DNA of 38,322 nt. It comes from Gammaproteobacteria bacterium (GTDB lineage Bacteria > Pseudomonadota > Gammaproteobacteria > Pseudomonadales > CAMLJR01). The translations under genes were made by a program, and so were the position numbers. The first letter of the stretch is position 1, and every line of letters begins with the position of its first letter. Below, piece after piece: positions 24,809 to 28,000 of this stretch. The notes beneath the pieces are model-generated. The model saw only the letters and a program-made list of their open reading frames with translations. It searched no databases and was not told where the DNA came from. The stretch spans positions 1 through 38,322 of the forward strand of contig JAJUJZ010000014.1 in NCBI GenBank assembly GCA_029265075.1. Reading direction: 5' to 3'.

Positions 24809-25395
24809 GCGCCTCGACCCCGTCCGGCACCATAGCCTGCCAGCTTCAGCAGCTCAGCAGTTTCGCACAGCGGCAGGCCGACGACACCGCTGTAACTGCC
24901 TTCAATACGGGAAATGAAGGCTGCAGCACGCCCCTGGATGCCGTAAGCGCCGGCTTTGTCGAGTGGCTCACCCGTCGCACAGTAAGCAGCGATATCGGCC
25001 TCGGACAGCGCGATCATCATCACGTCGGTGACAGATACCCGCGCCAGCAGCGTCTCGCCCTGTGCCACCGCCACACCCGTCAGCACCTGGTGGGTGCGTC
25101 CGGCGAGCCGGCGCAGCATGGCCGCAGCAGCGGTTGCATCGTCCGGTTTGCCAAGGATTTCGCCATCGACCACCACACAGGTATCAGCACCGATGACCAC
25201 CGCCGGCGTCGCCGGCGGCAGTGCCGCCTTGCCCGCCAGCGCCTTGCGCCGTGCCAGCCGCTCCACATAGGCCGCTGCGCTTTCGCCCGGCAGCAGCGAC
25301 TCGTCGACCGCCGGCGCCACCAGCTCATGATCGAGCCCAAGCTGGAGCAGCAATTCACGGCGACGGGGCGACTGAGAGGCTAAATAGAGGCGCAT
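24805..25395 (-). CDS. Maf-family nucleotide pyrophosphatase (YhdE type)
   Basis: This is a 196-residue Maf protein. Family members hydrolyse non-canonical or pyrimidine nucleoside triphosphates; the YhdE branch prefers dTTP and UTP. The N-terminal phosphate loop LYLASQSPRRRELLLQLG, PAVVIGADTCVVVDGEILGKP with the catalytic Asp, and GAYGIQGRAAAFISRIEGSYSGVVGLPL are all present. The neighbourhood of rng and mreD, as for E. coli yhdE, supports the YhdE branch over YceF. The ATG at 25395 is chosen because the protein must begin just before the phosphate loop. The much longer open frame lies within mreD. The stop overlaps rng. Confidence 0.94.
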   Translation of the reverse strand: MRLYLASQSPRRRELLLQLGLDHELVAPAVDESLLPGESAAAYVERLARRKALAGKAALPPATPAVVIGADTCVVVDGEILGKPDDATAAAAMLRRLAGRTHQVLTGVAVAQGETLLARVSVTDVMMIALSEADIAAYCATGEPLDKAGAYGIQGRAAAFISRIEGSYSGVVGLPLCETAELLKLAGYGAGRGRGA

Positions 25396-25423
25396 GGCTC
25401 TCCCTGCATCAGACAACGACAGC

Positions 25424-25909
25424 TCAATAAACCTGAAAACGCCGCCGGCAGTAGCGCAGCAGCACCATGACGGTGGGCCACAGCAGGGCCGACACCAGCG
25501 CCGGCAACAGGAACAGCAGGCTCGGCACCACCTGGGCATGCGTGAGAGTCTGTACCCAGTAATTGACCAGCTGATGCACGCCAATCAGGACAAACACGAT
25601 GCCCGCCTGCTGCCACCCGGCATACATTCGCATTCGCTGGTACAGCACCAGTCCGACATAAGCGACCACCGACAGCGACAGCGCATTCTGGCCGAGCGTC
25701 ACTCCTTCCACCACGTCCAGCAGCAGGCCGGTGGCCCAGGCCGACAGAATGCCCACGCGATGTGGCAGGGCGATCACCCAGTAGATCAGTACCAGCGCCA
25801 CCCACTCCGGCCGCGCCCAGGCCGCCCAGGCCGGCATGGGCACGATGCTGAGCCAGATCGCCACCGCAATGCTGAGGGCGATTACCCAGATGCCGCGCGG
25901 TCGGGTCAC
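25424..25909 (-). CDS. mreD: Rod shape-determining protein MreD
   Basis: This is a 161-residue hydrophobic protein with about five membrane segments. MreD is an inner-membrane part of the elongasome with MreB, MreC, RodA and PBP2. Typical features are the GILSAWATGLLLDVVEGVTLGQNALSLSVVAY block near residues 53-82 and the charged short C-terminus RYCRRRF. It starts with GTG, and GTGA overlaps the mreC stop, so translation is coupled. The maf ATG lies 28 bases after its stop. MreD is poorly conserved, and position after mreC makes the call firm. Confidence 0.94.
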   Translation of the reverse strand: MTRPRGIWVIALSIAVAIWLSIVPMPAWAAWARPEWVALVLIYWVIALPHRVGILSAWATGLLLDVVEGVTLGQNALSLSVVAYVGLVLYQRMRMYAGWQQAGIVFVLIGVHQLVNYWVQTLTHAQVVPSLLFLLPALVSALLWPTVMVLLRYCRRRFQVY

Positions 25910-26775
25910 TCTGCCGGCCCTTCCTCGGCCGCAGCCGCCTCAGGTCCGGGCACGCCATTTTCGCTGAACACCAGCAGCAGATGGCGGCTGCGATCGAGAT
26001 GCGCCAGCGGGCGCGCGGTAACCTGCAGGAACTGGTCCCCCGGATCCTCGGTTACTTCAGTGACCACAGCCACCGGATAACCGGGCGGAAAAACCCCACC
26101 CAGGCCCGATGTCGTCAGCAGATCCCCTGCCACGATATCGGTGGTGGCGGCAACATGACTCAGTGTGAGCTGGTCGAGCCGCCCGCCGCCTTCGGCAATG
26201 GCGCGCACGCCGTTGCGATTGACCTGCACCGGCACCGCATGAGCCGAATCGGTAATCACCAGCACGCGACTGAAGTGAGCACTCACCTCCACCACTTGCC
26301 CCACCAGACCGTGGGCGTCGATCACCGGCTGGCTGTCATAGACACCATCTTCGCTACCCTTGTTGATGACCACGACATGCCGCAGCGGATCGGGCGATAC
26401 GCCGATCAGTTCGGCGATGAGGACGCTGTCATCGAGGTGGGTAGCGGAGTTGAGCAGCTGCCGCAGGCGGGCGTTTTCGGCCGCCAGTGATGCCATCTTG
26501 GTGACCTTGGCCTGCAGGATCAGGTTGTCTTTGCGGAGCCGCTCATTCTCCGCCGCCAGACTGCGCCAGTCGCGAAGATTATGGTGACTCCACTGGCTGA
26601 TGCGGGAAGGCACATCCGCCAGCCAGTAAAACGGTGTGGCGACGACCGAGAAGGCCGACTCGACGCGCTCAAGACCCTCCCAGCGGAAGTGACCGGCGAT
26701 CAGCAGCAGCGCTGCGACCCCCAGCACCAGTATGCGCAACCCGATCGACGGGCCTTTTTGGAAAAGCGGTTTGAT
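25906..26775 (-). CDS. mreC: Rod shape-determining protein MreC, probable ATC start
   Basis: MreC spans the inner membrane and links MreB filaments to periplasmic PBP2. It has a membrane helix near residues 14-31, a coiled coil (ENERLRKDNLILQAKV to ENARLRQLL, about 70-110) and the beta-rich periplasmic part with SGLGGVFPPGYPVAVV. The conserved MreC N-terminus, KPLFQKGPSIGLR, is encoded here but lies upstream of the first canonical start, a TTG at 26739. Between the in-frame stop at 26787-26785 and that TTG there is no ATG, GTG, TTG or CTG. An ATC at 26775 aligns with the initiator of MKPIF in E. coli MreC and sits five bases after a strong GAGGTG. I therefore annotate ATC as start (289 residues). 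The conservative alternative is TTG at 26739 (277 residues), which loses the conserved segment. The stop overlaps mreD. Confidence 0.87.
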   Translation of the reverse strand: MKPLFQKGPSIGLRILVLGVAALLLIAGHFRWEGLERVESAFSVVATPFYWLADVPSRISQWSHHNLRDWRSLAAENERLRKDNLILQAKVTKMASLAAENARLRQLLNSATHLDDSVLIAELIGVSPDPLRHVVVINKGSEDGVYDSQPVIDAHGLVGQVVEVSAHFSRVLVITDSAHAVPVQVNRNGVRAIAEGGGRLDQLTLSHVAATTDIVAGDLLTTSGLGGVFPPGYPVAVVTEVTEDPGDQFLQVTARPLAHLDRSRHLLLVFSENGVPGPEAAAAEEGPAE

Positions 26776-26780
26776 GACGC

Positions 26781-26786
26781 CACCTC
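26781..26786 (-). promoter_or_regulatory. Ribosome-binding site pointing to an ATC start in mreC
   Basis: The minus strand reads GAGGTG, then GCGTC, then ATC at 26775-26773. Spacing of five bases is ideal for ATC. It is about 41 bases from the TTG alternative, which has no such motif directly before it. Confidence 0.6.
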
Positions 26787-26834
26787 AGCGCGTTGGAATT
26801 CCGTCGCGCCAGCAGCGCGGCGCGAGCCGCCAGC

Positions 26835-27881
<1,047 letters not shown>

Positions 27882-27971
27882 TCACCTTGTCGAGTGGGAG
27901 CAATGGCAAGCCCCGACCTGCAGGAGGGCGACGACAAAACAGAGGAAAACCGGCTGTCGTTCAAACGCGCA

Positions 27972-28000
27972 ACTCTATCAACGGCGGGGTTTAAGGGCAA
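27972..28000 (-). promoter_or_regulatory. Candidate sigma-70 promoter for mreB
   Basis: The minus strand reads TTGCCC (four of six), 17 bases, TAGAGT (four of six). Start near 27965 would give a leader of about 93 bases for mreB. Moderate match only. Confidence 0.35.

Follow-up and report, generated by a model that had tools for sequence, protein, structure and literature searches.

To our knowledge, few bacterial genes keep a start codon against which the translation factor IF3 discriminates. The cases described in the accessible text of two studies are infC, sigR, ccpN, cvfC1 and, in one S. aureus lineage, citZ (PMC5472188, PMC13009471). Discrimination by IF3 is reported at the starts of infC and sigR, together with repression of sigR by IF3 (PMC5472188), and the AUU or AUA starts of S. 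aureus cvfC1, ccpN and citZ, which come with an extended Shine-Dalgarno (SD) sequence, are reported to give about 10% of the expression obtained with AUG in poor medium and, for ccpN, up to 30% of it in rich medium (PMC13009471). Conserved starts that IF3 discriminates against are already known; mreC, a cell-shape gene with such a start across a wide range, would be new among them. We put at about 0.8 the probability that mreC, like infC and sigR, has a conserved weak start, one which holds MreC down, a reading in which we infer the steps that involve IF3 and expression.

The window, by which we mean the whole stretch of 38,322 nucleotides that was analysed, carries the genes in the order mreB-mreC-mreD (Table 1), with 59 bases between the mreB stop and the mreC ATC. 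Its MreC product scores 152.4 bits against PF04085 (cut-off 28) and 213.3 bits against TIGR00219 (cut-off 92.75), and an Rfam search of positions 25300-28000 gave no match at E 0.1. On the minus strand mreC reads TGA GGT GGC GTC ATC AAA CCG CTT TTC CAA AAA GGC CCG TCG ATC GGG TTG. The original prediction, that the gene starts at an ATC five bases after GAGGTG and that the conserved N-terminus of the protein is encoded upstream of the first TTG, agrees with this reading: no ATG, GTG, TTG or CTG lies in the mreC frame between the upstream TGA (26787-26785) and the TTG at codon 13, and the residue encoded by the ATC aligns with Met1 of E. coli MreC (7eft). The ORF lister places the start at that TTG, and since any gene finder restricted to ATG, GTG and TTG would begin at codon 13, the conserved N-terminus is cut off; MreC N-termini may thus be misplaced by gene finders.

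Table 1. Coordinates of the mreBCD features in the window.
Feature	Position	Strand	Remark
mreC start codon ATC	26773..26775	minus	fMet expected
Shine-Dalgarno GAGGTG	26781..26786	minus	5-base spacer GCGTC before the ATC
In-frame TGA closing the mreC frame	26785..26787	minus	three sense codons (GGT GGC GTC) 5' of the ATC
mreC coding sequence counted from the ATC	25906..26775	minus	289 aa + stop
TTG, first downstream canonical start, codon 13 of mreC	26737..26739	minus	
mreB, ATG start, upstream neighbour of mreC	26835..27872	minus	stop TAA 26837-26835
mreD, GTG start	25424..25909	minus	GTGA overlap with mreC stop, 25909-25906

The aligned codon is ATT, ATC or ATA (ATH; NTG denotes the alternative class of starts) in 232 of 280 mreC loci, the window included, which supports initiation at the ATC. 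While the original prediction described one gene, a non-AUG mreC start is, as read from these alignments, widespread in the class, and an ATH start with a good SD is the commonest state both in the order and among the class loci that were read. Within the order, a search of 95 genomes, among them that of the window, gave mreC matches in 93; one genome (G091) was left out because its match lacks the N-terminus, giving a set of 92 loci, of which 70, counting the window, have ATH. The best fetched order relatives (L002-L030) have ATT, ATC or ATA without exception (29/29). Aligning the start regions of relatives, the check named in the original prediction, did not return canonical starts throughout, though 22 of the 92 order loci have one: at the aligned codon in 12 cases (ATG 10, TTG 1, GTG 1) and, placed by hand and by eye, a few codons off it in the others (ATG 9, GTG 1). 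A scan of named genomes with two internal peptides as patterns, from which the best 80 of 569 confirmed stretches were kept and which therefore represents close relatives, gave ATH in 80/80 (ATT 38, ATC 36, ATA 6); 39 of these 80 are Pseudomonas or Stutzerimonas, and Cellvibrio, Gilvimarinus, Teredinibacter, Haliea, Dasania and others are also present. The class search matched 245 of 274 genomes, 241 of them outside the order, and ATH was found in 82 of the 108 (of 241) loci read there, a fraction that may be too high because the query was made from ATH genes and mainly better-scoring loci were read. The other 26 comprise ATG 14, GTG 4, TTG 1, GTT 1 (L283) and six loci that have no assigned start (L238, L248, L256, L259, L274 and L276). 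The GTT of L283 (full locus L353) and the ATC-GTT of L261 resemble the GTC/GTT of Streptomyces sigR, and two similar class loci, L238 and L256, have GAC at the aligned start and no recognised start codon nearby. E. coli mreC starts with ATG, as do L386-L391 from a phylum search, of which the 30 loci inspected were kept out of the counts.

These counts contain some manual decisions. The start was moved by hand to an adjacent codon in seven loci (L080, L081, L083, L214, L230, L244 and L277), leaving 225 ATH loci if they are removed, and L261, ambiguous between ATC and GTT, was tallied as ATH. The 232 ATH loci represent 227 distinct start regions, and some genomes sit in both the named and the unnamed sets. 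As controls, 117 of the 126 mreB loci that could be parsed begin with ATG where expected, no start being recognised in 11 further loci, and infC has ATH in 14 of 17 correctly anchored loci of related genomes, the other three having GTG or TTG. For infC, 30 loci were fetched and 13 dropped for anchoring (the unfiltered script tally is 16 ATH and 9 NTG), and the window's own genome gave no match to infC, presumably owing to a gap in the draft at 89.9% completeness.

The alternative that survives best accepts the start as real and denies it a regulatory role, in that SD and codon would drift jointly and any adequate total strength would be tolerated. This is rather unlikely in our estimation, and part of the evidence speaks for it. 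Weak codons go together with stronger SDs, the median for mreC being -7.7 kcal/mol in ATH genes (n=232) versus -3.15 in ATG genes (n=30), a difference with a p of 9e-11 that is uncorrected for relatedness; when relatedness is taken into account the association loses its significance, the independent pairs (3 starred, 9 in total) being too few. The SD of mreB, for which the parser considered ATG, GTG and TTG only and so cannot show the absence of ATH, is alike in both groups (-3.8, n=135, versus -4.0, n=30). Given the stronger SD of ATH genes, their net MreC output is not necessarily low; such an SD could just as well restore these genes to an ordinary rate. The weak SD of ATG lineages is a possible second route to the same low MreC rate. 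ATG-start mreC genes are often almost devoid of an SD, for example in L247, L255, L257, L268, L269 and L271, their median of -3.15 comparing with -5.0 kcal/mol in shuffles pooled over all loci.

Joint drift is also consistent with the history of the codon on a FastTree phylogeny of 179 MreC proteins (one gene, first residue excluded, start labels of L316-L355 assigned by hand), in which the start switched at least 12 times between ATH and NTG and, when ATG rows are included, at least 40 third-base changes occurred, 9.2 of them involving G, so that G is not barred everywhere. What weighs against drift is the named set (best 80 of 569), in which none of at least 16 changes at the start's third base involves G, whereas on the same tree and loci G takes part in 12 of the 13 third-base changes of Pro3 (74 rows) and in 7.1 of the 14 of Leu4 (68 rows). 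Since G is common at third positions a few bases downstream, it is kept out of the start in these loci, and its absence is hard to reconcile with drift because ATG is one substitution away. Thus, in this lineage the non-canonical state, present in 80/80 of the best 80 of 569, looks conserved by selection. Other comparisons say less: in the 135 ATH loci on the tree T, C and A replaced one another at least 33 times, these rows having been selected as ATH so that the missing G is no test; a Lys2 control carries no weight because within Lys codons only A and G are possible; and a comparison of the start's third base with internal Ile codons gives a mild, weakly informative difference (p about 0.03-0.05 for ATT and ATA). 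Midpoint rooting puts G at the root, which with such long outermost branches gives at most a tentative direction of change.

It is much less probable that the true MreC start is a downstream canonical codon, such as the TTG at codon 13 in the window or the GTG at codon 17 in Pseudomonas-like genomes, and that the N-terminus is correspondingly shorter. An NTG does occur within codons 2-20 of 182 of the 232 ATH loci, but its position varies and the other 50 have none before codon 21. Codons 2-12 align with the E. coli N-terminus and evolve as coding sequence, their diversity by codon position (0.446/0.319/0.650) having the pattern of a translated protein, while that of the 18 bases from -30 to -13 is flat (0.741/0.742/0.744), so that codon periodicity starts at the ATH. 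An SD core was detected in 222/232 ATH loci, its end lying 4-9 bases 5' of the start in 219 of these 222, and purines predominate from -12 to -7, where G reaches 0.80 at -9. When all ATH and NTG candidates within 20 codons are compared, the best SD belongs to the conserved ATH in 222/232 loci, and its SD is stronger than that of every in-frame NTG over this distance in 223/232. A strong SD at proper spacing, as in infC, sigR and ccpN, is therefore found at mreC, and a start in the ATH itself is strongly supported by these comparisons. Just before the ATH, pyrimidines are strongly favoured at -2 (C/T 0.83) and -1 (C/T 0.80) in the 232 loci.

The idea of a shorter protein draws further support from the published P. 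aeruginosa numbering, which fits a start at codon 17. The MreC of a Pseudomonas-like genome (L029, genome G093) aligns near-identically with chains 6zlv and 6zm0, which we take to be the P. aeruginosa MreC of a structure paper; counted from the ATC, its P, F, R, E and R occupy positions 130, 131, 191, 204 and 206. The mutated residues named in that paper are Pro114/Phe115, Arg175, Glu188 and Arg190 (PMC8137920), numbers that, with L029 as reference, are exactly 16 below the count from the ATC. In the Pseudomonas-like genomes G093 and G414 codon 1 is ATC and codon 17 is GTG, and with the offset of 16 this suggests that the published numbering counts from an internal GTG within the membrane helix. 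Judging from Pseudomonas-like genomes rather than PAO1 DNA, it seems to leave out 16 residues, part of the membrane helix included. Codon 17 is GTG in the Pseudomonas-like loci L397 and L399.

Less probable still is that the ATH is an internal Ile codon of a longer protein started upstream, which would account for T, C and A without G, ATH being exactly the Ile codon set, and for which an in-frame NTG is available upstream in 33/232 ATH loci. However, 194/232 have an in-frame stop upstream and no intervening ATG, GTG or TTG, 40 of these 194 also lacking any NTG before codon 21; the SD lies directly 5' of the ATH, and the bases upstream of it have no codon periodicity. For the window the upstream TGA refutes an upstream start, barring readthrough or frameshift, and as with the known starts of this kind the gene has no canonical upstream alternative. 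Hardly any chance is left for a sequencing or assembly error that made ATG into ATC in this single genome, which the original prediction had named as its main alternative and to which a fragmented draft (214 contigs, 89.9% complete) might lend itself, because the second genome of the window's genus (L002) has ATT and 231 loci besides the window, single-contig genomes and named isolates among them, carry ATH at the aligned codon, including 29/29 order relatives and 80/80 of the best 80 of 569 named records. The conserved ATH looks like a dimmer on the translation of a cell-shape gene, not like a sequencing error.

How would a weak, conserved start hold MreC down? The initiator tRNA would read the AUC as fMet and IF3 would disfavour it, as at infC and sigR, with the strong SD partly offsetting the weak codon. 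The net effect would be MreC synthesis that is low relative to that of MreB from the shared mRNA, for which mreC, lying 3' of mreB, would need its own lower initiation rate. By analogy with the known cases it is plausible that MreC is held low relative to MreB. In E. coli, MreC overexpression is reported to shorten and widen the cells, indicating that the dose of MreC matters, and MreD counters at least the shortening caused by excess MreC (PMC7793260). It is possible that the GTGA overlap throttles MreD too. An NTGA at the mreC stop is present in 61 of 133 ATH loci, which is weak evidence for coupling because any TGA with A, G or T before it would count. In 46 of the 133 an open frame of 120 codons or more comes after the NTGA, a frame identified as mreD in the window only. 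Together with the GTGA overlap, these 46 loci hint that the translation of MreD may in some of them be linked to that of mreC from its weak start. A more far-reaching scenario, which we advance tentatively and consider doubtful, is that over a large part of the class (to judge by the named relatives, Gammaproteobacteria in the GTDB sense), Pseudomonas included, an IF3-sensed mreC start (extending to mreD via the stop-start overlap) lets the level of IF3 or the initiation capacity set the MreC:MreB ratio, and hence the activity of the rod complex with growth rate. If the weak start is real, the dose of MreC and its link to translation could be tested directly by changing one base in a laboratory Pseudomonas.

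Among the matches listed in the open-access PMC literature, no report of a non-canonical mreC start was found, an absence that is no proof. Like mreC, lacI of E. coli retains a weak start, a GTG that lowers the protein dose (PMC11445065), but GTG is an ordinary alternative start and among those that IF3 does not act against according to the available text of PMC5472188. The S. aureus genes ccpN (AUA) and cvfC1 (AUU) come closer, sharing with mreC a conserved AUA or AUU start and a strong SD; they are different genes, from Firmicutes, and their starts were mapped by Ribo-Ret and tested with reporters (PMC13009471), whereas the mreC start is supported by sequence comparison. Streptomyces sigR resembles mreC in having a conserved non-canonical start that annotation missed and a strong conserved SD; it differs in that the codon is GTC or GTT rather than ATH, in the 34 Streptomyces genomes examined, and in that repression by IF3 has been shown for sigR (PMC5472188), while for mreC it is what we infer. 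With infC, which is autoregulated by its product IF3, mreC shares an AUU or AUC start with an SD upstream. Unlike IF3, MreC is not a translation factor, so that the mreC start would form no self-regulating loop and any control of it would act in trans.
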